Origin: Alphaproteobacteria bacterium
GTDB lineage: Bacteria; Pseudomonadota; Gammaproteobacteria; Burkholderiales; Burkholderiaceae_C
Reading direction: 5' to 3'
Length of the DNA stretch: 64,000 nt
Assembly (NCBI GenBank): GCA_030054175.1
Contig: JASGCM010000003.1
Coordinates: forward strand, 1 to 64,000
Shown here: piece after piece, positions 6,920 through 43,311 of the stretch
Position numbering within the stretch: position 1 is the first letter of the stretch
How the letters are laid out: each line of letters opens with the position of its first letter
Position numbers and translations under genes: made by a program
Notes under the pieces: generated by a model
The model's input: only the letters and a program-made list of their open reading frames with translations
Told to the model about the DNA's origin: nothing
The model's database searches: none

Positions 6920-6950
6920 GCTTGGCTTCACTGGGGTTCAGAGCGTTCAT
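6920..6950 (+). promoter_or_regulatory. Copy 1 of the 31-bp shared upstream motif
   Basis: Reads GCTTGGCTTC, ten variable bases, AGAGCGTTCAT. It ends 34 bp before the ATG at 6985. TTGGCT and GTTCAT are 17 bp apart, the right spacing for -35 and -10 boxes. Five further copies exist at 22067, 36601, 36901, 37593 and 43281, each before a gene. Confidence 0.6.
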
Positions 6951-6984
6951 AGGAACGTCATCAACAACCCAAGGAGCTTTGCAA

Positions 6985-7191
6985 ATGACCTACACCACAC
7001 AGTTCACCGTCGACGAGGTCGGGTTCATCCAGATCGCGCTCACCAAGGTGCTGGCAGCCGCCGCACGCGGTGAACTTGACCTCAACCTGCTGGCCCGCGA
7101 AGAGATGGCCTCACGCGGCCTTGACACCCAAGGCGAGTGGGTCGGCTTTGACCGCGCCCGACAGATCCACCAAGTGCGGGGAGCCAAGTGA
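6985..7191 (+). CDS. Small unknown protein in plus-strand cargo cassette
   Basis: A 68-residue protein of unknown function with a predicted helical core (IALTKVLAAAARGELDLNLLAREEMASRGLD). The ATG has AAGGAGC seven to eight bases upstream and the gene starts 34 bp after the shared 31-bp motif. Its TGA overlaps the next start codon (TGATG), so it is coupled to the DUF6900-like gene. No signal peptide or membrane segment is visible. It is the first gene of a three-gene plus-strand cassette in a minus-strand phage region. Confidence 0.65.
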   Translation: MTYTTQFTVDEVGFIQIALTKVLAAAARGELDLNLLAREEMASRGLDTQGEWVGFDRARQIHQVRGAK

Positions 7192-7379
7192 TGAACGCTA
7201 AGCAACTGGAGCGTCTGCTCAACCAAATCGCCGCAGAGCATCTGCACATCGACACGCTGGCAACACGCAGCAGGGACCACCTGGACTTTCATGAAGTCAG
7301 CGTCTGGGGCCTCAAAGAAGCCCTGCAAGCCGCCTTCACGGCTGGCCAGCAATCCAAACAAACAACCCAATCAAACTGA
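7191..7379 (+). CDS. DUF6900-like small protein
   Basis: A 62-residue protein with the core LDFHEVSVWGLKEALQAAF, which matches the pattern of DUF6900 (function unknown). A close relative lies at 36665-36874 in element B with the equivalent LDFHDVAVW core. In both places the next gene downstream is a DUF3489 protein. The start overlaps the stop of the gene before it. The family is usual on plasmids and phages of proteobacteria, but no activity is known to me. Confidence 0.75.
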   Translation: MNAKQLERLLNQIAAEHLHIDTLATRSRDHLDFHEVSVWGLKEALQAAFTAGQQSKQTTQSN

Positions 7380-7393
7380 TACCGGAGATCAAC

Positions 7394-7870
7394 ATGAAAC
7401 TCACACCCAGCCAAACCTTGCTTCTCAACGCCGCTGCCATCCATCCTCAGCATGTGCTGACCGACTTCCCGCCCAACCTCAAAGGTGGCGCGTTGATCAA
7501 GGTGCTGACCAGCCTTGGTAATGAAGGTCTAATCCGGCCCCACAGCAAAGGCGCTTCGGGCTCGACCCGCTTTGCCATCACCGTCGCAGGGTTGCAGGCG
7601 ATCGGCATTAAGCCACCCGCCAAATCTAAACGCGAAGGTAGCAAGCAGTCGGTGCTCATCGATCTGATGAAACGCCCGGAAGGTGCAACCCTTCCGCAAA
7701 TGGTGGAGGCCACAGGCTGGCAGGCGCACACCGTGCGCGGCTGCATGGCCGGGGCCTTGAAAAAGAAACTGGGACTGACCATCGACTCCGTCAAGGAGAG
7801 CGGTGGTGAGCGGGTCTACAGGGTCTCACCCTCCAGCTCGCTCCCCACAGCATCATCTAAAACCGACTGA
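7394..7870 (+). CDS. DUF3489 protein
   Basis: A 158-residue protein with a winged-helix-like N-terminal half and the DUF3489 core near the C-terminus (SVLIDLMKRPEGATLPQM, then TGWQAHTVRGCMAGALKKK). The Trp-Gln-Ala-His-Thr-Val-Arg-Gly string is the family hallmark. Function is unknown; the fold suggests nucleic acid binding. Its last 55 bp overlap in antisense with the end of the methyltransferase gene. A paralogue stands at 36962-37531 in element B, again after a DUF6900 gene. Confidence 0.85.
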   Translation: MKLTPSQTLLLNAAAIHPQHVLTDFPPNLKGGALIKVLTSLGNEGLIRPHSKGASGSTRFAITVAGLQAIGIKPPAKSKREGSKQSVLIDLMKRPEGATLPQMVEATGWQAHTVRGCMAGALKKKLGLTIDSVKESGGERVYRVSPSSSLPTASSKTD

Positions 7871-9102: not shown

Positions 9103-9189
9103 AGGGAAGCTTTCGGGTTGGTGCGCGGCGTGCAGGTCAACCAGCGAGGGCTGCTTTCAAGCGCGATAGATGCGGGGAAGTGAAGACCC

Positions 9190-9226: not shown

Positions 9227-9245
9227 AATTTGAGTGATTAGCAGA

Positions 9246-9275: not shown

Positions 9276-9298
9276 GGGGTTTTCGTACGATTTATAAA

Positions 9299-9607: not shown

Positions 9608-9613
9608 TCACTC

Positions 9614-9889: not shown

Positions 9890-9896
9890 GGATAAA

Positions 9897-21935: not shown

Positions 21936-22127
21936 ATGAAGAACCTCAAACTCGCCTCTCCCGCGGAGATGGCCCCCAGCGCCCGCGCAGGCGAAATCAC
22001 TACGATCCTTACGGCGGCCATCGTCCGCGCCCAAGTCACCGACGAGCCACGCCAAAGCGAAGTTCGGCTTGGCTTCTTGCCCAACCAGAGCGTTCATACA
22101 ACCCCCTATCAAAAGGAGAAGTTGTGA
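21936..22127 (+). CDS. Small leader protein of the recombinase module
   Basis: A 63-residue protein starting MKNLKLASPAEMAPSARAGE and ending PNQSVHTTPYQKEKL. CGGAG lies upstream of the ATG, and its TGA overlaps the start of the DUF2924 gene by one base (TGATG), so translation is probably coupled. I recall similar short proteins before DUF2924-recombinase pairs but cannot name a family. Its C-terminal codons contain copy 2 of the 31-bp motif, so some of this conservation might be due to DNA rather than protein function. Confidence 0.5.
   Translation: MKNLKLASPAEMAPSARAGEITTILTAAIVRAQVTDEPRQSEVRLGFLPNQSVHTTPYQKEKL
22067..22097 (+). promoter_or_regulatory. Copy 2 of the 31-bp shared upstream motif
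   Basis: GCTTGGCTTC, ten variable bases, AGAGCGTTCAT. It ends 29 bp before the DUF2924 start at 22127. Here the motif lies inside the small ORF, whereas in copies 3, 4 of the plus-strand element B genes and at 43281 an in-frame stop precedes it. Confidence 0.55.
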
Positions 22128-22576
22128 TGAACGAGAAGCAAGCGTCCGTAGCTGCGCGGATCGCCGAACTGTCCTGCCTGCCAATGGCAGATCTCTGGAC
22201 CGTGTGGGATCGGTACTTCCCCCGCCGGCCGGACTACCCGAACCGTACCCACGTCGAGTCCCGCATTGCCTACAAGCTGCAAGAAGAGGTCTTTGGCGGG
22301 CTGGCGCCCGAGATCAAGCAGCGGCTTGAAGCCATCGGCGCAAAGCATTCCAAGATCAAGCTTCGCGCCGCTCCACGCGAGTTCGAGTTCGCGCCAGGCA
22401 CCGTCCTGCTGCGCGAATGGGGCGAGCGAGAACACCGGGTGACGGTCACCGCCGAAGGGCTGTTCGAGTACGAGGGACAGCCCTTCAAGAGCCTGACCTC
22501 AGTGGCTCGCCAGATCACCGGATCGCATCGGTCTGGGCCGATGTTCTTTGGCTTGGGCAAGGGAGGTGCGCGATGA
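22127..22576 (+). CDS. DUF2924 protein, recombinase partner
   Basis: A 149-residue protein of the DUF2924 family. Landmarks are LPMADLWTVWDRYFPRRPDYPNR, RIAYKLQEEVFGGL and the C-terminal SLTSVARQITGSHRSGPMFFGL, all shared with the copy at 43340-43822. The C-terminal part resembles a small domain that occurs with DNA-binding proteins. It overlaps the recombinase start by four bases, so it probably acts with it in integration or excision. GGAGAAG precedes the ATG. Confidence 0.88.
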   Translation: MNEKQASVAARIAELSCLPMADLWTVWDRYFPRRPDYPNRTHVESRIAYKLQEEVFGGLAPEIKQRLEAIGAKHSKIKLRAAPREFEFAPGTVLLREWGEREHRVTVTAEGLFEYEGQPFKSLTSVARQITGSHRSGPMFFGLGKGGAR

Positions 22577-23952
22577 ACGAGATTGCCGCAAATCGCAGCC
22601 GCAAACGCTGCGCCGTCTACTGCCGGGTGTCTTCCGACGAACGACTCGACCAGGAGTTCAACTCCATCGATGCTCAGAAGGAGGCGGGCCAGGCTTACAT
22701 CGCAAGCCAGCGGACCGAGGGCTGGATCCCGGTGGCCGACGATTACGACGACCCCGGATACTCAGGCGGGAACACCGATCGGCCTGGACTCAAGCGACTG
22801 ATGGCGGACATCGATCGCGGCCAGATCGACATCGTCGTGGTCTACAAAATCGACCGTCTTACCCGCAGCCTCGCCGACTTCGCCAAGATGGTCGAGATCT
22901 TCGACCAGCATGGAGTGAGTTTCAGCGCGGTCACCCAGCAGATCAACTCCGCGACCTCGATGGGGAGGCTGATGCTGAACGTGCTGCTGTCCTTCGCACA
23001 GTTCGAGCGTGAGGTCACCGGCGAGCGCATCCGAGACAAGATCGCAGCGGCCAAGCGCAAAGGGATGTGGATGGGCGGCGTCCCGCCCCTTGGCTACGAC
23101 GTCGACAACCGACTTCTGGTCATCAACGAAAGCGAGGCAGCAGTCGTGCGCCGCATCTTCGAGGAGATGCTGACCATCGGCTCGCCGACGCAGATCGCCG
23201 CCAACCTGACCGCGGAGGGAATCACGACGAAGGCGTGGACGACGCAGGAGGGACAGACCCGCAGCGGCGCGCGCATCGACAAGAAGTACCTGCACAAGCT
23301 ACTGCGCAACCGCATCTACCTTGGAGAGCTGTCGCACAAGGGAAGCTGGTATCCCGGCGCGCATCCGCCGATCATCGATTCGCCCCTGTGGGAGAAGGTT
23401 CACAGCATCTTGGCCCGCGATGGGCATGCGCGGTCGGTGGAGACCAAGATTCGCTCCCGTACCGATGCGTTGCTGCGCGGCCTGCTGTATGCCCCCTCGG
23501 GCGAGCGCATGTACCCGACCTACTCGCGCAAGAACGGTCGCAAGTACTTCTACTATGTCTCCAAGTCGGAAAGCCGGTTTGGCGCTCCGGGCAAGGGCTA
23601 TGACCGCTTGCCAGCGCCGGAGATCGAGGCAGCGGTCGTGGCGCAGATCCGGACGGTCCTCACCAGCCCGGAATCCATTGCATCAGTGGTACGCCACATC
23701 CAGCGCACCGGCGCGCAGATAGACGAGGCCACCACTGTGATGGCGATGGGCCGGCTGAACGATGTGTGGGATCAGTTGTTCCCAGTCGAACGCCACCGGA
23801 TCGCCAACCTCATGATCGATCGCATCGACCTCGTCCACGTCGGCGAGGTGCAAGGCATCAAGGTGAAGTGGCGGGAACTGGGATGGGACGCCCTGATCGG
23901 TGAATTCGCTCCGAGGGAGATCGGCGCCGAACTCTTGGAGATGGAGGCCTGA
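22573..23952 (+). CDS. Large serine recombinase (integrase) of element A
   Basis: A 459-residue site-specific recombinase. The resolvase domain starts with CAVYCRVSSDERLDQ, with the likely nucleophile Ser20, followed by the helix signature SFAQFEREVTGERIRDKIAAAK. Then come a recombinase domain (PPLGYDVDNRLLVIN) and a C-terminal region. There is no clear zinc ribbon with four cysteines, so it belongs to the shorter branch of the large serine recombinases. The start at 22573 overlaps the DUF2924 stop. It is at the right end of element A, as expected for an integrase beside its attachment site. Confidence 0.93.
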   Translation: MNEIAANRSRKRCAVYCRVSSDERLDQEFNSIDAQKEAGQAYIASQRTEGWIPVADDYDDPGYSGGNTDRPGLKRLMADIDRGQIDIVVVYKIDRLTRSLADFAKMVEIFDQHGVSFSAVTQQINSATSMGRLMLNVLLSFAQFEREVTGERIRDKIAAAKRKGMWMGGVPPLGYDVDNRLLVINESEAAVVRRIFEEMLTIGSPTQIAANLTAEGITTKAWTTQEGQTRSGARIDKKYLHKLLRNRIYLGELSHKGSWYPGAHPPIIDSPLWEKVHSILARDGHARSVETKIRSRTDALLRGLLYAPSGERMYPTYSRKNGRKYFYYVSKSESRFGAPGKGYDRLPAPEIEAAVVAQIRTVLTSPESIASVVRHIQRTGAQIDEATTVMAMGRLNDVWDQLFPVERHRIANLMIDRIDLVHVGEVQGIKVKWRELGWDALIGEFAPREIGAELLEMEA

Positions 23953-24323
23953 TGGACGACTCCCTGGAAACCTTTGTGCCGCTGACTTTCCGCCGCCGGG
24001 GCTCTCGACGGGTAGCCGCCGACGATCGGGACGTTCACGACGTCACCTTGCTGGAGGGAATCGCGCGCGGCTTCTACTGGCAGCACCTTGTCGACAGCGG
24101 CGCCATAAAGAGCGGCTCGGACATCGCTCGGGCAGAAGGGCTGCATCCCTCGGTGCCCAACGAGCTGATGCGTCTGACCCTGCTCGCGCCTGACATCCTG
24201 GACACGCTGATGTCGGGACGGCAACCGCGTCGGATGAACCTGATCTGGTTCCAGCGCAACCCTCTGCCCGTGGACTGGGAAGCTCAGCGGCAGATCGTGC
24301 GGCGATTCGAGGAGGCGGCATGA
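23952..24323 (+). CDS. HTH-like protein downstream of recombinase (copy 1)
   Basis: A 123-residue protein with a KorB/ParB-like helix-turn-helix: SGSDIARAEGLHPSVPNELMR, followed by LTLLAPDILDTLM. It ends with WFQRNPLPVDWEAQR, a signature shared with the protein at 45156-45608. It overlaps the recombinase stop (TGATG). The constant link to the recombinase suggests a DNA-binding accessory, possibly a directionality factor; this is inference. Confidence 0.75.
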   Translation: MDDSLETFVPLTFRRRGSRRVAADDRDVHDVTLLEGIARGFYWQHLVDSGAIKSGSDIARAEGLHPSVPNELMRLTLLAPDILDTLMSGRQPRRMNLIWFQRNPLPVDWEAQRQIVRRFEEAA

Positions 24324-24793
24324 GCAAGAAACACCGGGGTCGATTCAAGGGCGATCCGGTCACTTACCAACTTCCGAATCCGGCTGGCGGCGTGCGACTG
24401 GAGACCTTCGTACCCTGGACCCTGGTGAAGCGGGGGATCAAGAAGCAGGTCATCACGCCGCTTGATGCCCCGCAGCAGTTCCTGTCAGAGGCAACGAGGG
24501 AGCGCGAAGCTCGGGCCACGGCGCAGGACACTTCGCTGATGCGGGCGCTCGGGTTGGCGCACCACTGGCAGCGCCTGCTGGACGAGCAGCGAGCCGCGTC
24601 GGTGGCCGAAATCGCGCGAGCCGAGGGGATGGACGTGACGCAGGTGCGTCGGTTGCTACGCCTGACCCTGCTGGCACCGGAGGTGTTGGAACGGCTCACG
24701 GAATCGCCAGAAGCGGTGCTGGAGCACGTGATGCGGCGGCCTTGGCCGCACGGCTGGAGCGACCAAATGCGAGTGCTCGGGCCGCCTGCCTGA
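24320..24793 (+). CDS. HTH-like protein downstream of recombinase (copy 2)
   Basis: A 157-residue paralogue of the protein before it: SVAEIARAEGMDVTQVRRLLR then LTLLAPEVLERL, with an extra basic N-terminus (MSKKHRGRFKGDP). It lacks the WFQRNPLPVDW tail. It overlaps the upstream gene by four bases. Tandem duplication within the module is seen only in element A; element B has a single version at 45156-45608. A terminator follows at 24816. Confidence 0.7.
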   Translation: MSKKHRGRFKGDPVTYQLPNPAGGVRLETFVPWTLVKRGIKKQVITPLDAPQQFLSEATREREARATAQDTSLMRALGLAHHWQRLLDEQRAASVAEIARAEGMDVTQVRRLLRLTLLAPEVLERLTESPEAVLEHVMRRPWPHGWSDQMRVLGPPA

Positions 24794-26733: not shown

Positions 26734-28103
26734 ATCAAGGCAACTTCTTTGGGCTGGATGGCAGGTTCAGGGCTCACACTCTCCACTGGCGACCGGGGAA
26801 TAAAGCATGCATCGAGACTGCCACAAACCGGCAGAAGCAAGCTTTTGTCCCGTAAACAAAACGGCAGCACCCACAGACGTAACCCATCAGATTTTGGAAA
26901 CTCGAACACGGGCAACGCCTTATCGAAGGCATCCGTTTTTGGGTAGATCAGTACCACATCACTCGGACCATCGAGATAGCATTGCCCGTAGGCGTGCATC
27001 TGGTAGAAGTCAGACTGCGCCAGACCGTATTTGTCTGTTCCGTTCGCTCTGGTTCCATCAATTAGCTTCCACTTGGTGTCCAATACCAATTTGTTGCTCA
27101 CCGACTCTCGAACCAATAAATCAGGCTTTAGCCAAAACCAGTTCTGCCCTTGGTGACTGACGAGGGAAAAACTACGCGCCTGCGTCTTTAGGGTGAAAGG
27201 TTGCGCAAGTTGCCTAGCCAGATGCTTGGCCACGAAGGCTTCGAAAACAGCCTCCATTGGAAAAAGTAGCGACGGTGCGCGGTTGCCACCGGTGCCAGTC
27301 AGTGGTGATTCGTCTTCCAGAATCAGGCGTGCCCACGCCAGTGAATCTGCATAGTGCCCCATGCCCCGATCCAACCGTACCCGCTGGAAATCCAGTCCGA
27401 ACTGGCTGGAAGTCGGAACTTCGGCAAAGACAAAACAGAGTTCACGTGCGAGTTGCTGATTCGCTTGCGATGCCGACAATAACAGCACGCAACGCAATGC
27501 CGAATGCAGCAACCGGTTCTCGGGACGGTTGGTCGAAAACTCGTCGCGTTCAGTAAAAAACCGATCCGCCCGACATAGATTCTGATGCAGGTGCTGAGAC
27601 ACCATCAGCTTGCCACGTAGCGCAAACAAGTTGTCTTGACGGCTCGTGTAATCGCTGCGCAGACCACGCTTGACGATATGTTCCACCGACCGCAAAAACT
27701 CCCCGATGAAGACCTCCAGCAAGGGCATTCGCGCGGCGGCAAGCTTGGCGCTGTCGGTCTGGATATGGCGGAAACCGCCCAGGCAGCGCAACATTTCGAT
27801 CAGCAGTTGCCTTGCCTCCTTGTCACCGCCGCCGATGGCCTTGCCCACCTTGGGCAACACTTCGATCTGGTATCCGTCGGGCGCACGTATGACACCCACA
27901 AAACTCGTCACCTGAACAGAAAGGCGTCCACGCCGCTGAGTCAGTCGCAACCAGGCGGCTTCACCTTGCTCGGCGGTGCGCAAGCACTGCAATACCAGCC
28001 AACTAAACACAGGAGCCGGAACGCAGCGCAAACCTTCTGTCTCGCTGAACCCCAGCACACTCGGCACCAGAGCATCGAATTCGTAGATCGTGATGCCGCT
28101 CAT
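26730..28103 (-). CDS. mcrC: McrC-type nuclease subunit (type IV restriction)
   Basis: A 457-residue protein of the McrC family. The N-terminal part carries the usual GVIRAPDGYQIEVLPKVG segment that contacts the McrB ring. The C-terminal PD-(D/E)XK nuclease has LKPDLLVRESVSNKLVLDTKWK as active site (Asp, then Asp-x-Lys). With McrB it cuts DNA that carries modified cytosines or similar marks. It lies 17 bp after mcrB and overlaps the next gene, as expected for an operon. Confidence 0.92.
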   Translation of the reverse strand: MSGITIYEFDALVPSVLGFSETEGLRCVPAPVFSWLVLQCLRTAEQGEAAWLRLTQRRGRLSVQVTSFVGVIRAPDGYQIEVLPKVGKAIGGGDKEARQLLIEMLRCLGGFRHIQTDSAKLAAARMPLLEVFIGEFLRSVEHIVKRGLRSDYTSRQDNLFALRGKLMVSQHLHQNLCRADRFFTERDEFSTNRPENRLLHSALRCVLLLSASQANQQLARELCFVFAEVPTSSQFGLDFQRVRLDRGMGHYADSLAWARLILEDESPLTGTGGNRAPSLLFPMEAVFEAFVAKHLARQLAQPFTLKTQARSFSLVSHQGQNWFWLKPDLLVRESVSNKLVLDTKWKLIDGTRANGTDKYGLAQSDFYQMHAYGQCYLDGPSDVVLIYPKTDAFDKALPVFEFPKSDGLRLWVLPFCLRDKSLLLPVCGSLDACFIPRSPVESVSPEPAIQPKEVALI

Positions 28104-28120
28104 TCGTGTTCCCTTGGCTG

Positions 28121-30640: not shown

Positions 30641-30695
30641 TTGTGCCACACCTTCACAACGAGAAACGAGGCGGAAGTCTGGGTTTGATCTGGCG

Positions 30696-33401: not shown

Positions 33402-33404
33402 GGC

Positions 33405-35066
33405 TTACACCTCCAGCGCGTAAGGGGTTTGCTTGAAGGTGATGCCTTCACGCGCAGCACGGCCGCCTATCCGGTTGGCTGCGGCGTAGATCACTTTTGA
33501 ACCAGAAAATTTCGGCAGCACATCAAACACCGGCCCGGTGAGCACATTGCCACCGGCGATGGATTTATCCTTAAGAATTCCGTTGTAGAGCAGGTAGAGG
33601 CCGCGCCCCTCGTGCACGCCCAGAAGCGGCGAATCGCCCTGGCCTGTGTAGCCGGAACCGGTTTCTGCAAACCAAACGAACTCGGCCAGTTGGGCAAAAG
33701 TGACATCAGAGCGAATCCGCCCCTCGGCTGTGAACAGCGGCTCGGCGGACAGACGGCAGAATTGGAAGCCTCCGCCCAAACCTTCGACGGCGTTGCCCTT
33801 AACGTTGGTGTAGCCGGTGGCAACGCGCTTGACCCGTTCAGCGGTGAGGCTGCGAGCGATGCCCTCATCCATTTCAACCAAGATGTATCGACGGTGACCG
33901 CCATCCTCGGAGTTCTGCTTTAGTACTGCATGGGCCGTGGTGCCGGAGCCTGCGAAAGAGTCCAGCACAAGGAAATCCTTGCCTTCGATCATGGAAATCA
34001 GATATCGGATTAAGTCCACAGGCTTTGGAAAGGGAAAACTAAAACCCATTTCCGTCAATGCGGCGGACTGGGATTGGGTGCTCCCAACGCCGCTAATGAC
34101 TGTAATTACGTGGCTTGCTTGTTCACGATCCTTTACGGATTCGATTGCACCAGTCCCCGTTACTACAAATCGTGTACGTTGCCCTTTCGAGTCAAGAACG
34201 GGTTGAAAGCCTGAATCTATGAATTCCTGAAGAATCGACTTCGATGACCAGCCACTGGATATCGTCACCTCATTTGTCAGCTCACCATTTATAATAGTTG
34301 CGTCCGACAGGTAGTGTGGCCAAGCGCTCGTACGTGCTGGTATTTGCGCCTCCTGCACACTTGCAGGAAATCCAATGGGCATAACAACCTCGCTGATCGG
34401 ATTCTTAGGGCCGTTTTTGACAATCGTATTCTGAATGTGAGCGCGGTTTAGTTTGCTCCCAGCGCCGACCGATGGATCAATCACCTTGGGATGGGGAAAA
34501 AGGTCCGGGTTAATTGCGTACGCGAGCACGTATTCATGGCAATTCTTTATTTTGGCTTGATTGTCGAAATTCCCGTCAGTACGCCACACAAAAGTGGCCA
34601 GACGACGCTTTACGCCAAAGATTTCGTCCAGCAAACTGCGCATGTGGTGTATTTCGTCATCATCTATCGAAATGAAAATCACCCCATCGTCGCTGAGAAA
34701 CTGCTTCAACAACACGAGGCGTGGATACATCATCGACAACCAGCGATCGTGCCGATCCAGCGTCTCGCCTTCTTTGCCGACTACTTCGCCCAGCCAGCGG
34801 CGGATTTCCGGGCTGTTGACGTTGTCGTTGTAGATCCAGCCCTCATTGCCAGTGTTGTACGGCGGGTCGATGTAGATGCACTTCACCTGCCCCGCGTAAC
34901 GCGGCAACAGCGCCTTGAGTGCGTGCAAGTTGTCGCCCTGAACGATCAGGCTATCGCCCGGCGCGTCGCCGCAGGACAACTCCGGCACAGGTTCCAACAG
35001 ACGAAACGGAACTTCCTTGTGGTGTTTCACGACGGCTTCTTTGCCGATCCAGTTCAATGTTGGCAT
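33405..35066 (-). CDS. mod: Type III DNA methyltransferase, Mod subunit
   Basis: A 553-residue adenine methyltransferase. DPPY occurs in CIYIDPPYNTGN (about residue 65) and the AdoMet motif in LDSFAGSGTTAHAVL (about residue 370), so it is a beta-class enzyme with the target-recognition domain between them (about residues 180-340). That central region has lower GC and less regular codon use than the flanks, as usual for swapped recognition domains. It starts 12 bases after the HTH gene. No simple repeat tract that would cause phase variation is seen. Confidence 0.95.
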   Translation of the reverse strand: MPTLNWIGKEAVVKHHKEVPFRLLEPVPELSCGDAPGDSLIVQGDNLHALKALLPRYAGQVKCIYIDPPYNTGNEGWIYNDNVNSPEIRRWLGEVVGKEGETLDRHDRWLSMMYPRLVLLKQFLSDDGVIFISIDDDEIHHMRSLLDEIFGVKRRLATFVWRTDGNFDNQAKIKNCHEYVLAYAINPDLFPHPKVIDPSVGAGSKLNRAHIQNTIVKNGPKNPISEVVMPIGFPASVQEAQIPARTSAWPHYLSDATIINGELTNEVTISSGWSSKSILQEFIDSGFQPVLDSKGQRTRFVVTGTGAIESVKDREQASHVITVISGVGSTQSQSAALTEMGFSFPFPKPVDLIRYLISMIEGKDFLVLDSFAGSGTTAHAVLKQNSEDGGHRRYILVEMDEGIARSLTAERVKRVATGYTNVKGNAVEGLGGGFQFCRLSAEPLFTAEGRIRSDVTFAQLAEFVWFAETGSGYTGQGDSPLLGVHEGRGLYLLYNGILKDKSIAGGNVLTGPVFDVLPKFSGSKVIYAAANRIGGRAAREGITFKQTPYALEV

Positions 35067-36600: not shown

Positions 36601-36631
36601 ACTTGGCTTCTCAATCAAACAGCGTCTTACT
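36601..36631 (+). promoter_or_regulatory. Copy 3 of the 31-bp shared upstream motif
   Basis: ACTTGGCTTC, ten variable bases, AGCGTCTTACT. It ends 33 bp before the DUF6900-like gene. A TGA directly precedes the CTT, so the motif is not part of a longer reading frame here. Confidence 0.6.
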
Positions 36632-36664: not shown

Positions 36665-36874
36665 ATGAGCACCACCATCGACCAGATTTTTTTCCTGATC
36701 GCCCAAAAGCACCTCTTTATCGAGACCCTGGAAACCCGCCACTCCGACCGCCTTGACTTCCACGATGTCGCCGTCTGGAGCGTGCGCGATGCACTGGAGG
36801 CCGCGTTCAAGGCGGGTGTCGAGTTGGGCGCATCCATGCCAAAAGCCACGGAAGCAGAAATCGCGCAAGACTGA
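36665..36874 (+). CDS. DUF6900-like small protein (element B copy)
   Basis: A 69-residue protein with RLDFHDVAVWSVRDALEAAF, clearly related to the 7191-7379 protein (RDHLDFHEVSVWGLKEAL). The N-terminal part (IDQIFFLIAQKHLFIETLETRHS) forms a helix. CCGGAG precedes the ATG. It is first in the plus-strand block of element B and is followed after 26 bp by another 31-bp motif and a DUF3489 gene, the same pair as in the prophage. Confidence 0.78.
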   Translation: MSTTIDQIFFLIAQKHLFIETLETRHSDRLDFHDVAVWSVRDALEAAFKAGVELGASMPKATEAEIAQD

Positions 36875-36900: not shown

Positions 36901-36931
36901 GCTTGGCTTCACTGCCAAACAGCGCGTTCAT
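36901..36931 (+). promoter_or_regulatory. Copy 4 of the 31-bp shared upstream motif
   Basis: GCTTGGCTTC, ten variable bases, AGCGCGTTCAT, the copy closest to the consensus. It ends 30 bp before the ATG at 36962 of the DUF3489 gene. Confidence 0.6.
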
Positions 36932-36961: not shown

Positions 36962-37531
36962 ATGACCAACCAACTCAGCCTCACCCAGCACACCGTTCTG
37001 GCCCATGCCGCCCAAAACACCAACGGCAAGATCACTTGGTTCCCTGACAACGTCAAAGGCGGGGCCCGCCACAAAGTGCTCACCGGCCTGTTCAACCGCG
37101 CCCTGATCACCAGCAACGGTGCCGAACATTTTGTCGCCGCCGAGGGCTACGATGCACTTGGGCTCACGCGGCCAACGGCCGCAATTGCGCCAGAGGTGGC
37201 ACCCTTGGACGCAGACCCAGAACTGGAGGCCACCGTGGCCAACGTCGAGGCCCAGTGGGCGCAAGCCTCACAACAGCCTGTGACAGCACCAAAAGCTCAC
37301 CGCCAGCGTGAGAACAGCAAACAAGCCACCATCATCGCAATGCTGCGCCGCCCGGAGGGTGCGACGGTTGCGCAAATTTGTGCATGCACTGGCTGGCAAG
37401 CCCACACAGTGCGAGGCACGTTTGCCGGAGCGTTCAAAAAGAAGCTGGGGCTGACCATTACATCGGCAAAACTCCATGGTGGCGAGCGCAGCTACCACGT
37501 TGTGACATCGGCAGACGAATTGCAGACTTGA
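36962..37531 (+). CDS. DUF3489 protein (element B copy)
   Basis: A 189-residue protein. The C-terminal domain has MLRRPEGATVAQICACTGWQAHTV, then RGTFAGAFKKKLGLT, the DUF3489 hallmark also seen at 7394-7870. The N-terminal domain (KVLTGLFNRALITSNGAEHF) is winged-helix-like, and an Ala-rich linker joins the two. It is longer than the prophage copy because of the linker. The ATG at 36962 was chosen because the 31-bp motif and a ribosome site precede it; an in-frame upstream extension would start within the motif region. Confidence 0.85.
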   Translation: MTNQLSLTQHTVLAHAAQNTNGKITWFPDNVKGGARHKVLTGLFNRALITSNGAEHFVAAEGYDALGLTRPTAAIAPEVAPLDADPELEATVANVEAQWAQASQQPVTAPKAHRQRENSKQATIIAMLRRPEGATVAQICACTGWQAHTVRGTFAGAFKKKLGLTITSAKLHGGERSYHVVTSADELQT

Positions 37532-37592: not shown

Positions 37593-37623
37593 GCTTGGCT
37601 TCCGTCTTGAACAGCGTCTTACT
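37593..37623 (+). promoter_or_regulatory. Copy 5 of the 31-bp shared upstream motif
   Basis: GCTTGGCTTC, ten variable bases, AGCGTCTTACT. It ends 36 bp before the ATG at 37660. A TAG directly precedes the CTT. Confidence 0.6.
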
Positions 37624-37659: not shown

Positions 37660-38025
37660 ATGAACGCAACCACCAGCATTCCCGCAGCCACCGTGACCGA
37701 CTTTGGTTTTTGGGGCACCATGCAAAAGCATGCATCCGCTGCTTGGGCCATCGCCCTGCCAGCCATTGCCAACGCCACCGGGTGCGAACCAGCGCAAGTC
37801 AGGGCATTTTTGGACAGTCGCCACGGTCGCCATTTTGCAGACGATGTCCAAAATGCACTTTTCGTCGGTGCCACCCTCAAGGACGCGATTGACCAAGCGA
37901 CCGTCAAGTGGATGGGCTGGACGATTGGCCGCAACACCGCCCGCGAAACTGGCATCCCTCGCGGCATGGCCTACTTGACCGGGTTTGTGGTGCAAGCCGC
38001 CATCGACGACGAAATTTATATCTGA
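37660..38025 (+). CDS. Unknown 121-residue protein of element B
   Basis: A small protein without a family I can name. It has a helical N-terminal half (WAIALPAIANATGCEPAQVR) and a C-terminal helix (WMGWTIGRNTARETGIPRG). A mild hydrophobic character is seen, but no clear membrane segment. CCGGAG lies at good spacing from the ATG. It has its own 31-bp motif and is followed by hairpins, so it may be a single-gene unit. Confidence 0.65.
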   Translation: MNATTSIPAATVTDFGFWGTMQKHASAAWAIALPAIANATGCEPAQVRAFLDSRHGRHFADDVQNALFVGATLKDAIDQATVKWMGWTIGRNTARETGIPRGMAYLTGFVVQAAIDDEIYI

Positions 38026-38118: not shown

Positions 38119-38395
38119 TTCGCCAGCACATTTTTCACCGCATTAAATGCGGCGAATCTGCCACTTTATCTCCGCATGACCCGCCAGCCGCGTCGGCAAA
38201 GGGTGTGAATTGAATTCCCCCCCTTTGCGCCCAAGGTGCAAACCCGCTGTGGTGCAAACCCCTGCAAACCTTGGTTTGCACGCTGACTGTAGGCGACGCG
38301 TGCGCTGTTGCCCCCCTCATAGGATTTTGGCCAGGAAGGACCCCTTTTATCTGGGGCATGTATCCGTGCGGCGACCATAACAATGGGCAACCACC

Positions 38396-38475
38396 ACCAT
38401 CACAACCGTCACAACCATCACACGGCGCATCGATTCCGGCGGTGCCTGTGATGGTGGTGATGATCGTGATGGTTG
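38396..38475. repeat. CCATCACAA-type repeat array, first copy
   Basis: A 27-bp stretch at 38396-38422, made of the units CCATCACAA and CCGTCACAA, is repeated exactly at 39590-39616. It is followed at 38447-38475 by an inverted arm with GTGATGGTGG-type units. The spacing of the units is 9 bp. Such iteron-like arrays bind replication initiators; here it lies 75 bp before the gene at 38550. Confidence 0.7.
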
Positions 38476-38549
38476 TTTCATACTGTCAAGATCCAAAAAG
38501 GTATACCCCGTCGCTAGACTTACCTCATTTCAATCTTTCGGAAAACGCC

Positions 38550-39164
38550 ATGCCTGCACCAAGTGTCACCAATTGCCTGCGCTATTGGGATTTAGCCGAC
38601 CATATCCAACTCGCCGATGCGATTGCACTGTGGTGCGGTGTCGAGCCAGCAGAACTGGTCAAACTGAACTTTGAGACCCAGTGCATGAGTGCAAAACGGG
38701 CGGCGTTGGTCACCGGATTGCGCGATGGCAGATTGGAATATGAAGACCTCGGACTGGTCACAAACCATGGCAAAGTCTTCAAAGGCGCACCGATTGATGA
38801 GCTACTGGAAAAAGGTCGTCTCGTCATCAACAAGACAAGCCTGCGCCGATGGTTCGAGCAGTTGCCATTTGAAGACAGACCAGAGTTCTTGTTTGACGAA
38901 TCCCGCCAACCCGTCCTGCCAGATGGCAGCGACGTGGCCGAGATGAATAGCCTGCGGGCCATTGCTGTCATGGCACATATGTTGGCTAACGCATCACCCA
39001 AGTACAGACATGGAGACAAGCCAAACTCAGATGCCATTGGCAAAGCGGTACTTGAAATGGCAGAACAAGTTCTGGGCAACTCCCGCAGTCTTGCATCGTT
39101 TCACAAAAAGATTGCTGACGCATTGCGCCAATACGGCCCGGAGATCAAAGTCAAGCGAATTTGA
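38550..39164 (+). CDS. Unknown 204-residue protein before the helicase gene
   Basis: A protein starting MPAPSVTNCLRYWDLADHIQL. I do not recognise the family. It has a helical character with IALWCGVEPAELVKL near the N-terminus and a C-terminal basic end (GPEIKVKRI). The ATG at 38550 was chosen because the coding signal starts there; the frame is open upstream but runs through the repeat array. It is the first gene of a co-directional trio with the AlpA-like and helicase-like genes, so a role in replication is possible. Confidence 0.65.
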   Translation: MPAPSVTNCLRYWDLADHIQLADAIALWCGVEPAELVKLNFETQCMSAKRAALVTGLRDGRLEYEDLGLVTNHGKVFKGAPIDELLEKGRLVINKTSLRRWFEQLPFEDRPEFLFDESRQPVLPDGSDVAEMNSLRAIAVMAHMLANASPKYRHGDKPNSDAIGKAVLEMAEQVLGNSRSLASFHKKIADALRQYGPEIKVKRI

Positions 39165-39265
39165 TCGAAGTTCTGAAAATCAGAATACCTTTCTGAAAAT
39201 AGGTGACCCCAAAAAGCATACGACCGACCATCTGGCATTCCAAATGAACCAGAAGGAATGCCGAA

Positions 39266-39544
39266 ATGCCCAAACGGGTCCAAATACCAAAGCTTGCCAG
39301 CACTGCCGATCTACGCAATGAATTCTGGCGTGCTCCAGACCAAGCTCTCCTCAATCGTCAAACCACTGCCGTTGGCCTTGGCTACACCGTAGGCTGGCTG
39401 GAATGGGCTGCCACCAGCGGCGGTGGCCCTGTGCTGACCAAAATCGGGCGCAGTGTTCGCTATCGCAAGGCGGATGTTCTGGCTTGGCTGCAAGCCAATA
39501 GCCGTCGTATCTCCAGCACAGCCGAACTGGCTGACAAGGTGTGA
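39266..39544 (+). CDS. AlpA-like DNA-binding protein of element B
   Basis: A 92-residue protein. GPVLTKIGRSVRYRKADVLAWLQAN is the wing and C-terminal helix of AlpA/HTH_17 proteins (landmark given in part), preceded by a variant helix-turn-helix region (GLGYTVGWLEWAATSGG). The stop overlaps the start of the helicase-like gene. In P4-like satellites an AlpA-type regulator controls the integrase or primase genes, and the position here agrees. Confidence 0.7.
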   Translation: MPKRVQIPKLASTADLRNEFWRAPDQALLNRQTTAVGLGYTVGWLEWAATSGGGPVLTKIGRSVRYRKADVLAWLQANSRRISSTAELADKV

Positions 39545-39546
39545 CG

Positions 39547-41358
39547 ATGGTGAGCACTATCCCTTCCCAAGCCTCGACAGTAGGGAACGACCATCACAAC
39601 CGTCACAACCATCACAGCGGTGACCTTGGTGATGGTCGTGATGGTGAATCTCCACTGGTGGACGTTGACCAGACAGCGTCATCAACCGATCAACCCACCG
39701 TCACGCCGCCGCAAAACCCGGTCGAGGTGATCGAGGCAGCGCTCATCCGACTCAAAGACGATGTCGGTGTCCTGGCTGAAGAGGCGGTGGTGCAGGCGTT
39801 TTCTGTTTTGCGCGTCACCGACATGTCGGCCTACCTGCGCCTTCGCCATCAAGCCAAGGGTGCCAACCGCGATTGCTCGGTCACCATGCTTGACAAACTG
39901 GTGCAGCAGGAACTGCCCGGTGGTGGCGAGGAACGCTCGCCCATGGACGCGCTGGTTGAAATGGCCCGTGCCCAGTGCCATTTGCACCACGATGCTGACC
40001 GTACTGCGGTGGCCATCATCCCCCTGCCCAGTTGCCAAGAGGTCTGGCGGGTGCAGTCCACTGGTTACGAGGCTTGGCTGCGCGCTGCCTATTGGCGTGC
40101 GACTGAGACCGGCATACCTGACATGACCATGCGCGCCGCCCTGGCCACCCTGTGCGCCGCCGGTGTCAATGATGGACGCGAGGTCGAGATTTATCTGCGC
40201 GCCGCCGCCCATGCCAAGGGCTACTTGATTGATATGTGTGACGCGCAGTGGCGCGCCATTCACGTCACCTGCAACGGCTGGCGCGTGCTGGATGCCTCAC
40301 CGCTGCTGTTCACCCGCAACCAGTCGATGCGGCCATTGCCCATGCCCGAGCGCGGCGGTCAGATCGACACCCTTTGGCAGCACGTCAATGTTCCAGCCGA
40401 CCGGCGCTTGATGGTGCTGACCTGGCTGCTGGACTGCTTTCGGCCAGAAACGCCATTCCCGGTGCTGGAGCTGGTGGGTGAGCAAGGGTCGGCCAAGTCA
40501 ACCACCCAGTCGGTGTTGCGCAGCTTGATTGACCCCAACAAGGTGATGTTGCGTGGCAGGCCCAAGACGGTTGAAGACATCTTTGTCGCCGCCAACAACA
40601 ACTGGCTGGTCTCTTACGAAAACCTCTCCGGCCTGACAGCCGAACAGCAGGACGCCTTTTGCACACTGGCTACCGGTGGTGGGTTTGCTGCGCGCCAGTT
40701 GTACACAAACGGCGAAGAGCATGTCATGGAAACCAAGCGGCCGGTGGTGCTCAACGGTATCGCCGTTGTGGCCAGTCGCCCAGACCTGATCGACCGCGTG
40801 ATTCACGTGGACATGCCGGTGATCAGCGCAGGTGCCCGCAGGGATGATGCCGACACCCATGCGCAGTGGGAGCGTGACCGACCCATGGTGTTTGGCGCAT
40901 TGCTGGATTTGTTTGCCCGGGCCTTGCTGATTCTGCCCAGCGTGCGTCTGACCCATAAGCAGCGCATGGCCGACTACGAACGCTTTGGCGAAGCCGTTGC
41001 TCGCGCCCAGGGTCACGCAGCCGGTGTGTTTCAGCAGCAATACGCAGAGTTGATCAGTGCGGGCATCGACCGTGCCCTGGAAGGCAATGCGGTGGCACAG
41101 GCGTTGGACAAGGCATTGGGCCACGGTGGTTTCCCATGGCGCTGGAATGGCACCGCCGGTCAACTTTACGACTTTCTGAGCGTGCACAGCAATGGCGACC
41201 GCACCAGTTGGCCGCGCTCTCCCAAGGGCCTGTCTGACCAGTTGCGCCGTATTGCACCGGCGTACCGGGCCAAAGGCATCGAGATTGCCGCCGCTGGCCA
41301 CAGCCGCGAAGGTGCGCTGTGGCGCATCGCACCCATCAAACCCAATGATTTTTTATGA
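39547..41358 (+). CDS. AAA+ ATPase, putative replicative helicase of element B
   Basis: A 603-residue ATPase. Walker A is in ELVGEQGSAKSTTQS, Walker B in WLVSYENLSGL, and a sensor-like motif in VLNGIAVVASRPDLIDRVI. The C-terminal 150 residues carry a winged-helix-like part (LSDQLRRIAPAYRAKGIEI). No Toprim or primase motif is seen, so it is not the D5-type protein of element A. The first 45 residues are His- and Asp-rich because the DNA repeat at 39590-39646 is translated there; a GTG two codons upstream is an alternative start. Confidence 0.8.
   Translation: MVSTIPSQASTVGNDHHNRHNHHSGDLGDGRDGESPLVDVDQTASSTDQPTVTPPQNPVEVIEAALIRLKDDVGVLAEEAVVQAFSVLRVTDMSAYLRLRHQAKGANRDCSVTMLDKLVQQELPGGGEERSPMDALVEMARAQCHLHHDADRTAVAIIPLPSCQEVWRVQSTGYEAWLRAAYWRATETGIPDMTMRAALATLCAAGVNDGREVEIYLRAAAHAKGYLIDMCDAQWRAIHVTCNGWRVLDASPLLFTRNQSMRPLPMPERGGQIDTLWQHVNVPADRRLMVLTWLLDCFRPETPFPVLELVGEQGSAKSTTQSVLRSLIDPNKVMLRGRPKTVEDIFVAANNNWLVSYENLSGLTAEQQDAFCTLATGGGFAARQLYTNGEEHVMETKRPVVLNGIAVVASRPDLIDRVIHVDMPVISAGARRDDADTHAQWERDRPMVFGALLDLFARALLILPSVRLTHKQRMADYERFGEAVARAQGHAAGVFQQQYAELISAGIDRALEGNAVAQALDKALGHGGFPWRWNGTAGQLYDFLSVHSNGDRTSWPRSPKGLSDQLRRIAPAYRAKGIEIAAAGHSREGALWRIAPIKPNDFL
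39590..39646. repeat. CCATCACAA-type repeat array, second copy (inside the helicase gene start)
   Basis: The 27 bp at 39590-39616 are identical to 38396-38422, and GGTGATGGTCGTGATGGTGA at 39627-39646 forms the inverted arm. The two copies are 1194 bp apart. In this copy the units encode a His-rich segment of the helicase-like protein. Confidence 0.75.
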
Positions 41359-41417
41359 CGTCACGCCGCCCGATGTCACCACTTCTGTAGTGGGCGGCAA
41401 ATTTTAAGGAAACCCTC

Positions 41418-41777
41418 ATGACCCAACCTGTCAATCCGAACCTTCACCCTATCTGGCACGACATCCTCGGCATCAAGTCGGTTCAAGTGCCAGCAGCCAG
41501 CGCTGATAGCAACGCCGCTGCGAACTATCTGATGGCGCAGGCTTACGCACCGATGGCAACTGCTGCGCCATCGCCTATGGCTGTAACCATCGCTGCGCCA
41601 AGTATCCAAGTCAGCCAAGACTGGCAAATCAACTCGGCAAATCCGGTTGCCGGTCGACCCGTGGGCATCAAACGTCAAGTTGGCCCGAATCTGTTTGTCA
41701 GCACCACCGTCCATCCGGGTGACCCGCGTTACCCAGGATTCATCACCCAGCACAACCCTTTACCCGTCAACCTTTGA
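41418..41777 (+). CDS. Unknown 119-residue protein
   Basis: A protein rich in Ala, Pro and Ser in its first half (PMATAAPSPMAVTIAAPS), with a compact C-terminal part (GIKRQVGPNLFVSTTVHPGD). No family is recognised. TAAGGAAA precedes the ATG. It lies 59 bp after the helicase-like gene and 10 bp before the coiled-coil gene, so the three may be one operon. Confidence 0.55.
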   Translation: MTQPVNPNLHPIWHDILGIKSVQVPAASADSNAAANYLMAQAYAPMATAAPSPMAVTIAAPSIQVSQDWQINSANPVAGRPVGIKRQVGPNLFVSTTVHPGDPRYPGFITQHNPLPVNL

Positions 41778-41787
41778 AAGCATCACC

Positions 41788-42630
41788 ATGAAACTCAATC
41801 CATTTCGCAAGAAAACCAACCGCTACGTTGAAGCAACCCAAGTCCAGTTCAATGCATTGAGTCACGAACTGAATGGTCTGAATAAAGAGTACGCCATCGT
41901 CAAGGCCGAACTCGACCGTGAAAAAGCTGTCCGCCAGCAAATGGACGACCGAACATCGCACTTGGCGTTGCGACCAACGAATGCACAAAATGAACAGTGG
42001 CACATCGTCATGGAAGTCAGTAGACGTGAACAGACGCTGGGAGACGAAATCAGTTCGTTGGAAAACAGGATGAAGCCGCTGCGCCAGATCGTTGATGCGC
42101 CCAAGAATTTTGATGATGCACAGGCGGAACTTCAGACGCTGCTCGCAGAGCGCCAGGGTATCAACCAGGAAGTCGCCCAGTTAGATGCCAGTATTGGCAA
42201 GATCAATAAACGCGTCACTGACGTGCAAGCCAAGATTGCGACCGAGACCGCAGCGGCCTCAAAACAAATGATAGCAGCGGAAGATGATTTTGTGGTGCCG
42301 GACTCGCTCACCCGACTGGAACTGCAAGTGCGACTGGCCAACACCTCGCTGGCAGACTTGCAGCGCCAACGTTCGGACTTGGCCGAGCAACTGAAAGAGA
42401 TGCCGGAGCAGATCAGATCAGCCCAGCGAAGTTTTGAATATGCCCGGGCAAAGCTGGCTGAAGTGGACATCTACGATCAGATGCTGCCCTTCATGAAGCA
42501 GCTCAGCCGTGCTTCGGTGACGCGCCACCAAACCGGCTATCGCCATGAAGAAGCCACATTCAAGTTTGAAATTCCGTGGGATTTGATCGAGTCCACCAAA
42601 GCCGAACTGGCGGCTGAACTCGTCGACTGA
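41788..42630 (+). CDS. Coiled-coil protein of element B
   Basis: A 280-residue protein with long heptad-rich helices: LSHELNGLNKEYAIVKAELDR in the first third and LQVRLANTSLADLQRQRSDLA in the last third. It has no signal peptide and no enzyme motif. The ATG at 41788 was chosen because it follows the upstream stop by 10 bp and the frame upstream shows no coding character. Coiled-coil proteins in satellites may act in structure or in interference with helper phage; here that is open. Confidence 0.65.
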   Translation: MKLNPFRKKTNRYVEATQVQFNALSHELNGLNKEYAIVKAELDREKAVRQQMDDRTSHLALRPTNAQNEQWHIVMEVSRREQTLGDEISSLENRMKPLRQIVDAPKNFDDAQAELQTLLAERQGINQEVAQLDASIGKINKRVTDVQAKIATETAAASKQMIAAEDDFVVPDSLTRLELQVRLANTSLADLQRQRSDLAEQLKEMPEQIRSAQRSFEYARAKLAEVDIYDQMLPFMKQLSRASVTRHQTGYRHEEATFKFEIPWDLIESTKAELAAELVD

Positions 42631-42831
42631 CGTTGTTCAACCACGTCATGGCCGCGCTGAACTGACGCGGTTGCTCGGCTCCCATGCAGCGGCCCACCAC
42701 GGGCCGTGTTCTTCACCTTTACGCACCCTTACGAGCCCAAGAAAACGTCGTGATGAAAAAGCACGTCGTACACGTCGGCACTGAATTGCACCACCGGCGC
42801 ACCTGTTCAACCCAAACACGAGGATTACGCA

Positions 42832-43266
42832 ATGAATGCTTCTCAAAATCCAAATTACCAGTGGGTCAACCACCCCAGCGCCGATGACAGCATGATGCGC
42901 CGGGTACAGGCTTGGCTCGATCAGGACAAGTCCATGGTCTGGTTCCCAATCCTGAATTCGCAGAACTTTCCTGATGTTTCGCCTGCAATTCTGCTCCAAG
43001 CCAACCAGTCGCACCGCTGCTTTGCTTGGTCGATTGAGGAAGCCGAAGACCTATTGCACATCCCCGAGGGCGTAACTGGCTGGTTGTTACCCATCGATCA
43101 GCCCGACACCGACGTGGTGGTTGGCGTGTGGGAGGGTGAGCTTCACTTTGTCACCGCAGTAGACCAAGGCACTGACCAGCCACAGACTCTCCTGAGCAGC
43201 AAGGGGATCACTGCAATTGCTGTCGATAGTCAAGACGAGCGTCCGAACGATGCGACAGGTTCTTGA
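42832..43266 (+). CDS. Unknown 144-residue acidic protein
   Basis: A soluble acidic protein with aromatic-rich segments (KSMVWFPILNSQNFPD, RCFAWSIEEAEDLL). No family is recognised. GAGGATTACGC precedes the ATG. The 201-bp gap upstream contains only a GC-rich hairpin (GGCCCACCACGGGCC) and no gene. Its end lies just before copy 6 of the 31-bp motif. Confidence 0.6.
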   Translation: MNASQNPNYQWVNHPSADDSMMRRVQAWLDQDKSMVWFPILNSQNFPDVSPAILLQANQSHRCFAWSIEEAEDLLHIPEGVTGWLLPIDQPDTDVVVGVWEGELHFVTAVDQGTDQPQTLLSSKGITAIAVDSQDERPNDATGS

Positions 43267-43280
43267 AAGAGACAGGTTTG

Positions 43281-43311
43281 ACTTGGCTAATGCTCGCCAC
43301 AGCGCGTTCAT
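43281..43311 (+). promoter_or_regulatory. Copy 6 of the 31-bp shared upstream motif
   Basis: ACTTGGCTAA, ten variable bases, AGCGCGTTCAT. It ends 28 bp before the DUF2924 gene at 43340. TGA precedes the CTT and a TAA is inside, so it is not translated in this frame. The equivalent gene in element A has copy 2 at nearly the same distance. Confidence 0.6.

Follow-up and report, generated by a model that had tools for sequence, protein, structure and literature searches.

The first 64,000 nucleotides of contig JASGCM010000003.1 (assembly GCA_030054175.1, positions 1–64,000, forward strand; hereafter, the window) come from an organism labelled Alphaproteobacteria bacterium, which GTDB places in the Pseudomonadota, Gammaproteobacteria, Burkholderiales, Burkholderiaceae_C. 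The window holds two mobile elements and six copies of a 31-bp motif, each of which stands ahead of a gene start in one of these elements. Judged from its letters and their surroundings, this near-invariant sequence looks like a promoter that is repeated before the integrase and before a changing set of small genes in one widespread virus family and in elements related to it.

Element 1 (approximately 1–24.8 kb) is a prophage, with a protease, a methylase, a primase, an antirepressor-like gene and a serine recombinase. Element 2 (36.6–45.2 kb), which adjoins the transfer-messenger RNA (tmRNA) gene, has in common with the AcaML1-like phages only the small-gene module and the operon formed by a DUF2924 gene and a recombinase gene, and is devoid of methylase, primase and protease; it is possibly a satellite of the prophage next to it. 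The ends of the elements were not found: the last 40 bases of the tmRNA gene have no copy of at least 12 bases elsewhere in the window. Acidithiobacillus phage AcaML1, a relative to which we return below, is listed as inserted at 'srrA' (PMC3826726), which we read as ssrA.

The original prediction had placed the six copies at 6920, 22067, 36601, 36901, 37593 and 43281, 28–36 nt before a start codon and with 17 bp between TTGGCT and the last hexamer. These coordinates are correct, all copies lie on the + strand, the gaps from the end of the 31-mer to the ATG are 34, 29, 33, 30, 36 and 28 nt, and the spacing is indeed 17 bp. Two details stand in part only. The RCTTGGCTTC pattern describes five copies, but the one at 43281 reads ACTTGGCTAA there and fits it less well; and while TGA or TAG letters do abut the copies at 36601, 36901 and 43281, the reading frames upstream of these close 14–32 bp earlier (at 36568, 36874 and 43266).

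The pattern first proposed, if cut to 24 positions and allowed three mismatches, yields 22 matches against a mean of 14.8 in shuffles, 5 of 100 of which reach 22; alone, it is only slightly above chance and insufficient as proof. We therefore rely on a scoring matrix of 32 positions built from 267 thinned sites, none of them from this genome. With this matrix, scores above 0 arise at exactly six places in the window, namely the reported copies (20.7–47.4), and at none on the other strand, and the best score in 100 dinucleotide shuffles of the window is 5.4. The observation is thus confirmed as real, and it proved larger in extent than first reported.

Table 1. Motif copies and the genes that follow them in the window; the −35, −10 and +1 positions are predictions from the motif register.
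Feature	Position	Strand	Remarks
Motif copy 1	6920..6950	+	score 33.6; predicted −35 6922–6927, −10 6945–6950, +1 6957; ATG at 6985
68-aa gene	6985..7191	+	uncharacterised; PHROG 22970; opens the small-gene module of element 1
DUF6900 match	7206..7355	+	element 1; without own motif copy
DUF3489 gene	7394..7870	+	element 1; without own motif copy
Motif copy 2	22067..22097	+	score 42.1; predicted −35 22069–22074, −10 22092–22097, +1 22104; ATG at 22127
DUF2924 gene	22127..22576	+	heads the integrase operon of element 1
Large serine recombinase	22417..23952	+	element 1; reading frame, 5' part overlaps DUF2924, start approximate
Two small proteins	23952..24793	+	PHROG 14161, helix-turn-helix-like; close the integrase operon of element 1
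Motif copy 3	36601..36631	+	CTTACT type; score 36.8; predicted −35 36603–36608, −10 36626–36631, +1 36638; ATG at 36665
DUF6900 gene	36665..36874	+	element 2
Motif copy 4	36901..36931	+	top score, 47.4; predicted −35 36903–36908, −10 36926–36931, +1 36938; ATG at 36962
DUF3489 gene	36962..37531	+	element 2; predicted double winged-helix DNA-binding protein
Motif copy 5	37593..37623	+	CTTACT type; score 36.0; predicted −35 37595–37600, −10 37618–37623, +1 37630; ATG at 37660
121-aa gene	37660..38025	+	uncharacterised; PHROG 8020; usually last in the module
Motif copy 6	43281..43311	+	most diverged; score 20.7; predicted −35 43283–43288, −10 43306–43311, +1 43318; ATG at 43340
DUF2924 gene	43340..43822	+	element 2; weak RAMA-domain match (Pfam)
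Large serine recombinase	43819..45159	+	element 2

Distribution of the motif and the genes behind it

The organism's own 3.1-Mb assembly contains 17 matches to the 30-mer (at most three mismatches), versus one for the reversed pattern. Fifteen of them precede the same gene families; six of these are the window copies, and the other nine, on contigs C11, C17, C23 and C30, stand before DUF2924 (three), DUF6900 (two), DUF3489, the 121-aa gene, the 68-aa gene and an 86-aa gene (one each). The two remaining matches (C10:32991 and C38:47016) look like chance. A further, more diverged copy precedes a 121-aa gene at C30:52844. The genome has six DUF3489 and five DUF6900 genes; DUF6900 was detected in 1 of the 60 other genomes of that sample, many of which are incomplete. 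Note that the sites of this genome appear to belong to several related elements, on contigs C10, C11, C17, C23 and C30, with 14–16 kb between the module and the integrase site on C10, C11, C17 and C30, and that DUF6900 was not found in 35 of 36 other genomes assigned to the same genus, many of them incomplete.

Random scatter of the motif outside mobile elements, which would have spoken against its significance, was not seen when the search was carried beyond the window. Ten motif genomes scanned whole gave 26 matches versus 0 for the reversed pattern, and all 26 adjoin a DUF2924 gene, a DUF3489 module, a 96-aa gene beside DUF2924 or a large operon; the organism's own assembly has two exceptions among its 17 matches. 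Of 398 genomes sampled from the phylum, 18 yield a match with no more than one mismatch, and exact matches occur, among the matches listed, in three genomes including the organism's own. One of the one-mismatch sites adjoins DUF3489; several others consist of identical letters in related genomes, as in coding DNA.

To extend the collection, 158 further loci were retrieved from IMG/VR with DUF6900 and DUF3489 queries (the best 80 of 166 and the best 80 of 411 relatives, respectively). The matrix finds 349 unique sites in all loci collected up to this point by such gene-guided means, versus 0 above threshold in reversed and complemented copies, and of 40 unique stretches upstream of DUF6900 recovered with a signature, 37 score above 30. 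To lessen the bias of gene-guided sampling, we also scanned with the pattern only, which returned at least 120 viral and at least 115 genome stretches; the 79 and 80 of these that were analysed contain at least 174 viral and at least 123 genome unique sites by matrix. An open reading frame (ORF) starts 27–42 nt past the 32-position site at 151 of the 174 viral and 110 of the 123 genome sites, the typical distance from motif to start codon being 33–35 nt. No ORF satisfied the rule used after five viral and two genome sites, six of these seven lying within 175 nt of the end of the locus.

The proteins encoded downstream in the pattern-only loci fall into 37 clusters, the largest being DUF3489 (50 members), DUF2924 (47), DUF6900 (45), the 121-aa family (44) and a 120-aa family (19). 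With all loci together there are again 37 clusters, 27 with at least two members; some of the small ones are out-of-frame or unclear ORFs. All in all, the virus and genome records with the motif number well over a hundred. Its carriers are AcaML1-like prophages and related serine-recombinase elements of Beta- and Gammaproteobacteria, Acidithiobacillus and Nitrospira (Candidatus Nitrospira defluvii); in AcaML1 itself, a scan of 40,195 of its 59,363 bases revealed four copies.

When 13 long virus records, both window elements and two thirds of AcaML1 are compared by gene content, one related phage group emerges. The methylase, primase and S49 protease of element 1 are common to all 13 records and AcaML1, and its recombinase to 11 of the 13 and AcaML1. 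By contrast, the AcaML1 terminase and portal match those of all 13 records but not those of element 1, which has its own, so that element 1 is a mosaic.

Module genes usually follow one another as DUF6900, DUF3489, any accessory genes and the 121-aa gene. Among 473 adjacencies between motif-bearing genes (median distance between copies, 462 bp), DUF6900 is followed by DUF3489 120 times, versus two in the reversed order, and DUF3489 by the 121-aa gene 71 times, with further families inserted between these anchors. For ten pairs of families both orders were seen, though in low numbers, and neighbours of the same family were never observed (0 of 473). Neighbouring genes often, though not always, have one copy each. 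As for orientation, counted within 16 kb and with related phages included, all 534 unique contexts with a methylase have it facing the other way from the module site, as do 74 of 74 with a primase, 28 of 28 with the window-type terminase and 18 of 18 with the portal. For integrase sites, the methylase faces the other way in 7 of 7 cases and the primase in 17 of 21.

The motif also precedes a gene set of another kind. In a proteobacterial metagenome-assembled genome (locus L503, 6370–13565), it stands at the usual distance before a DUF499–DUF3780–DUF1156 methyltransferase operon recognized by PADLOC models, and in Nitrospira defluvii (locus L499, 6955–14121) the same operon probably lies behind it, as judged from gene sizes and identical spacer letters.

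Seven DUF3489 genes of distant genomes (loci L465, L466, L468, L469, L471, L472 and L481) have a different conserved leader, near GGCTTGGSSTCGTAGAAG. With at most one mismatch in 12 genomes, seven of eight matches to this leader lie beside a DUF3489 gene and one elsewhere. A second, parallel regulon was considered for these genes and rejected: the total of 23 matches, versus 14 in the control, means that no such regulon is seen.

As for the surroundings of the elements, element 2 contains four reading frames at 38271–43266 (+; 297, 605, 327 and 144 aa) with no informative match in Pfam, PHROGs, NCBIfam or PADLOC, except for a coiled-coil (SMC/LmuB-like) match of the 327-aa protein. Between the two elements, a defence-like operon at 25183–35066 (−) comprises a type III methyltransferase (33405–35066) and a restriction gene (30696–33401), McrB-like (28121–30649) and McrC-like (26730–28103) genes and a gene (25183–26733) that matches Argonaute-type models (best expectation value (E), 4e-17), all on the − strand. 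Past the tmRNA gene, a gene that matches ZorB/MotB models and another that matches a mads_2 model, at 46912–48652 (−), suggest a second defence locus.

Promoter-like anatomy and candidate recognisers

To define the anatomy of the motif, we thinned 746 unique contexts to 277 sites with less than 70% upstream identity. The information content of this set is 43.5 bits. Conservation is strong over CTTGGCTTC (positions 1–9, of which positions 1–8 are near 2 bits) and ACAGCGCGTTCAT (positions 18–30), and low in between (0.05–0.6 bits at positions 10–16). With the −35 hexamer at positions 2–7 and the −10 hexamer at positions 25–30, the spacer is 17 bp and the predicted +1 falls on position 37, i.e. 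the motif has the geometry general to RNA polymerase promoters: two blocks about 17 bp apart and a start 6–9 nt past the −10. A pyrimidine–purine step is found at positions 36/37 in 81% of the sites (pyrimidine 98%, purine 82%), in independent agreement with the start predicted from the spacing. Upstream, the A level rises to 0.4–0.6 in three peaks, 11 bp apart, centred near motif positions −26, −15.5 and −4.5, compared with about 0.1 between the peaks and about 0.2 farther upstream. In the promoter register these peaks lie near −41.5, −52.5 and −63, and the alpha C-terminal domains of RNA polymerase dock at such upstream A-tract positions. The predicted leader is about 29 nt long and includes a Shine–Dalgarno sequence: an ATG lies 25–45 nt past the motif in 260 of the 277 sites, and a Shine–Dalgarno-like core begins 9–13 nt before it in 231 of these 260.

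As the original prediction had remarked, conservation extends beyond the −35 and −10 boxes, bases at −20 to −13 and at −29/−28 being kept as well. Moreover, the −10 variants (GTTCAT, GTTACT, CTTACT and GTCAAT) depart from the canonical sigma70 element, with T instead of A at −11 (position 26) in about 99% of the sites, but they keep the T at −7 (position 30) in 100%. By our estimate, some 19 bits suffice to single out 15 sites in the organism's own genome, less than half of the 43.5 bits observed. A −10 poorly suited to sigma70, together with more fixed bases than sigma70 needs, makes a dedicated factor most likely.

Altogether, we consider it probable, on sequence evidence, that the motif is a transcription promoter which serves AcaML1-like prophages, and the serine-recombinase elements related to them, as a common switch for turning on an accessory regulon. 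To position host RNA polymerase, the A-tracts would dock its alpha C-terminal domains near −41, −52 and −63, and CTTGGCTTC would act over −36 to −28; ACAGCGC and GTTCAT (or GTTACT/CTTACT) over −19 to −7 would complete the contact. Transcription would begin near +1, giving an mRNA whose leader, about 29 nt long, contains a Shine–Dalgarno sequence. A dedicated factor, either an activator or an alternative sigma factor, would provide specificity and would probably be encoded by the elements. In this way the integrase and many small genes, often with one copy each, would be expressed jointly and independently of the lytic genes, which point the other way. The original suggestion thus had two halves: that the motif is a promoter is well supported by the anatomy and by its confinement to these mobile elements, whereas that a shared regulator encoded by the elements reads it is something we infer. 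What the sequences show directly is the motif, its spacing, its restriction to the elements and its orientation; promoter activity, start site, recogniser and timing are deduced from these.

Two proteins of the regulon are candidate recognisers: DUF3489, encoded in the module, and DUF2924, encoded in the integrase operon. The model of DUF3489 (predicted local distance difference test score (pLDDT) 86.9, predicted template modelling score (pTM) 0.46) has good local confidence and shows two winged-helix-like blocks; its best matches in the PDB are DNA-bound regulators, MepR and RovA among them (E at least 0.017). That of DUF2924 (pLDDT 82.2, pTM 0.41) best matches an MPND–DNA complex (E 0.092). 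MPND contains a RAMA domain, and the match is in line with the weak Pfam RAMA match of DUF2924. These predicted folds suggest DNA binding by both proteins, for which sequence searches of the PDB returned no match (DUF3489) and a single one with an E of 0.89 (DUF2924). Among 49 motif genomes (50 of 80 listed genome loci), 42 have DUF3489, versus 65 of 398 in the phylum sample, and 46 have DUF2924. A host factor is also a possible recogniser. Tentatively, and with considerably more doubt, we put forward the wider proposal that a new type of recogniser, encoded by the elements (DUF3489, DUF2924 or both), steers host polymerase to one promoter common to several co-resident prophages, a core-less putative satellite and DUF499–DUF3780–DUF1156 defence operons, so that different mobile elements of one cell would make up a single accessory regulon that extends across two phyla.

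Several observations weigh against these proposals. The pyrimidine–purine step is nearly as frequent at positions 39/40 (72%) and reaches 77% at 30/31, where the invariant T of the −10 supplies its pyrimidine. Just upstream of the motif, 71 of the 277 sites carry GCTTGGCTTC in inverted form (at least 8 of 10 pairs), versus 12 in shuffles and 3 in a stretch farther upstream; copy 4 of the window has such an arm, AAGCCAAGC. The promoter model cannot explain this arm; the A peaks persist in the 206 sites devoid of it. Not every member gene has a copy: in element 1 a single copy stands ahead of the 68-aa, DUF6900 and DUF3489 genes, the latter two having none of their own, 3 of the 40 stretches upstream of DUF6900 lack one (in one of the three a copy lies just too near), and a DUF6900 relative on a Burkholderia plasmid has no motif. 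Concerning the recogniser, only 3 of 50 virus records have a sigma region-4 domain above cut-off (7 of 50 at E 0.01), the structural matches are weak (E 0.017 and 0.092 at best), and the proportions 42/49 and 46/49 are biased because the motif sits before these very genes. Finally, 3 of the 49 motif genomes lack DUF2924 and 7 lack DUF3489, including the complete genome HdN1, so that DUF3489 is not the sole recogniser, if the sites in those seven work. In these seven, the site precedes DUF2924 in five, DUF2924 and the 96-aa gene in one, and the defence operon in one.

Some candidates were tried and set aside. An element-encoded sigma factor was looked for in the 50 virus records, with few matches (three above cut-off); DUF3489 as the sole regulator was dropped on account of the seven genomes; and the inverted arm was rejected as a terminator, no T-run being present in the sites inspected. 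Note that the DUF2924 leader of the window (22097–22126, ACAACCCCCT...AGGAGAAGTTGT) is nearly identical in AcaML1 and that its ACAAC can pair with GTTGT around the Shine–Dalgarno sequence, a possible sign of translational control as far as the letters go.

Alternative explanations and known systems

The anatomy could also be that of an ordinary host sigma70 promoter, read without any special factor and conserved owing to the recent spread of one promoter–leader block. TTGGCT matches the −35 consensus at four of six positions with ideal 17-bp spacing, the A-tracts and the start step suit sigma70 polymerase, and the leader is partly common within gene families. Nevertheless, the best −10 sequences (GTTCAT, GTTACT and GTCAAT) match at only three of six positions, with the nearly constant T at −11, and recent spread alone is insufficient since positions 10–16 have drifted while positions 1–8 remain near 2 bits. 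We regard this explanation as unlikely. A promoter overlapped by a prophage repressor operator, which would keep the accessory genes and the integrase silent in the lysogen, as do the asymmetric stoperators of L5-type mycobacteriophages, has in its favour that two proteins reading one site could yield the excess information (43.5 bits) and that about a quarter of the sites have an inverted half upstream. We judge it rather improbable: no module site runs in the same direction as the adjacent lytic genes that were compared, and the occurrence of one motif on five contigs of the same genome, apparently in several elements, would be odd for an immunity operator. A leader element acting in the RNA, such as a riboswitch or a processing or translation signal at the 5' end of each gene, would account for the near-fixed distance to the start codon and for the C/A-rich leader before the Shine–Dalgarno sequence. 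It is very unlikely, given that RNAalifold predicts 0 pairs in 40 sites (drawn from the thinned set, one without a clear gene being replaced by a window copy) and that Rfam matches nothing but tmRNA in the window and five loci of the same genome. In addition, copy 1 stands between the gene at 6985 and a divergent reading frame (a putative gene) starting at 6883, which leaves little room for a promoter farther upstream.

The original prediction had also envisaged a site at which cassettes are exchanged by recombination. Accessory families are indeed inserted between the anchor genes and bring their own copies, and ten family pairs occur in both orders. However, the letters, spacing and gene order examined give no evidence for a site-specific recombination site: the core motif lacks the symmetry typical of a recombinase core site, the distance to the start codon is near-fixed across unrelated genes, the order of the anchor genes is kept (DUF6900 before DUF3489, 120 versus 2) with 0 same-family neighbours in 473, and the motif also precedes the integrase and defence operons. 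A recombination site for single-gene cassettes is accordingly highly improbable, but ordinary recombination could use the repeated promoter–leader blocks as stretches of homology. The last explanation to be considered, identity with the BisDC-dependent transfer-competence promoter motif of ICEclc-type elements, deserves next to no credence. Eight ICEclc promoters are reported to share a motif, and the integrase promoter is among nine bimodal ones (PMC9286271); in common with our motif, several promoters of one integrating element are alike, and those of ICEclc are described as being switched on by an element-encoded activator (PMC9286271, PMC7423338). The reported motif is nonetheless 27 bp long, belongs to a conjugative element and is 152 bp away from the start mapped for PinR, the one promoter for which the distance is given, whereas at most sites no more than 42 nt separate ours from the start codon, and element 1 and AcaML1 carry phage genes. 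We therefore set this identity aside, the two motifs being compared by description and not by their letters.

A transcription promoter shared by an accessory regulon, our preferred reading, has precedents among phages. Lambda CII, P2/P4 Ogr/Delta and the T7 promoters, which have excess information, are phage-specific sets with a dedicated factor. In the same way, a dedicated factor would here coordinate several phage promoters, including that of int as in lambda. Unlike in those sets, no symmetric or direct-repeat dimer site is recognized in the core motif, and the hosts range from Betaproteobacteria to Nitrospira. The motif also resembles the start-associated sequences (SAS, and their extended form, ESAS) of Cluster K mycobacteriophages (PMC3203893) in being a short, asymmetric phage sequence at a fixed distance before many unrelated non-structural genes, and a further likeness is that about half of the SAS are reported to have upstream inverted repeats. 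SAS, for which a role in translation has been proposed, are however described as 13-bp sequences that contain the Shine–Dalgarno core and typically lie 3–7 bp from the start codon (PMC3203893), whereas our motif ends about 33–35 nt upstream, has promoter geometry and precedes the Shine–Dalgarno sequence. As to the genes, they are like phage morons in being small, accessory, apart from the phage core genes and equipped with their own promoter. Morons are however defined, in the account available, by sigma70 promoters and terminators (PMC5567305), and here a single near-invariant predicted promoter unlike that of sigma70 is shared, by the integrase as well. We found no description of the motif in the literature on the DUF families, AcaML1, the motif letters or the topic, surveyed mostly at the level of titles.

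A phage promoter shared by a regulon is of a known kind; what is new is its reach, the number of uncharacterised genes behind it and the missing recogniser. For most small genes of temperate phages, neither the function nor the time of expression is known. A promoter of such specificity lets the genes of a regulon be listed from sequence alone across many phages. So far the list comprises 37 clusters, mostly of unknown function, the integrase operon and a candidate defence operon (in one genome, with a second likely), and when these genes are on, and what turns them on, becomes a directly testable question. If the recogniser is encoded by the elements, it would be a new specificity factor and a tool for orthogonal expression, and the regulon would be a case of promoter sharing among mobile elements within one cell.

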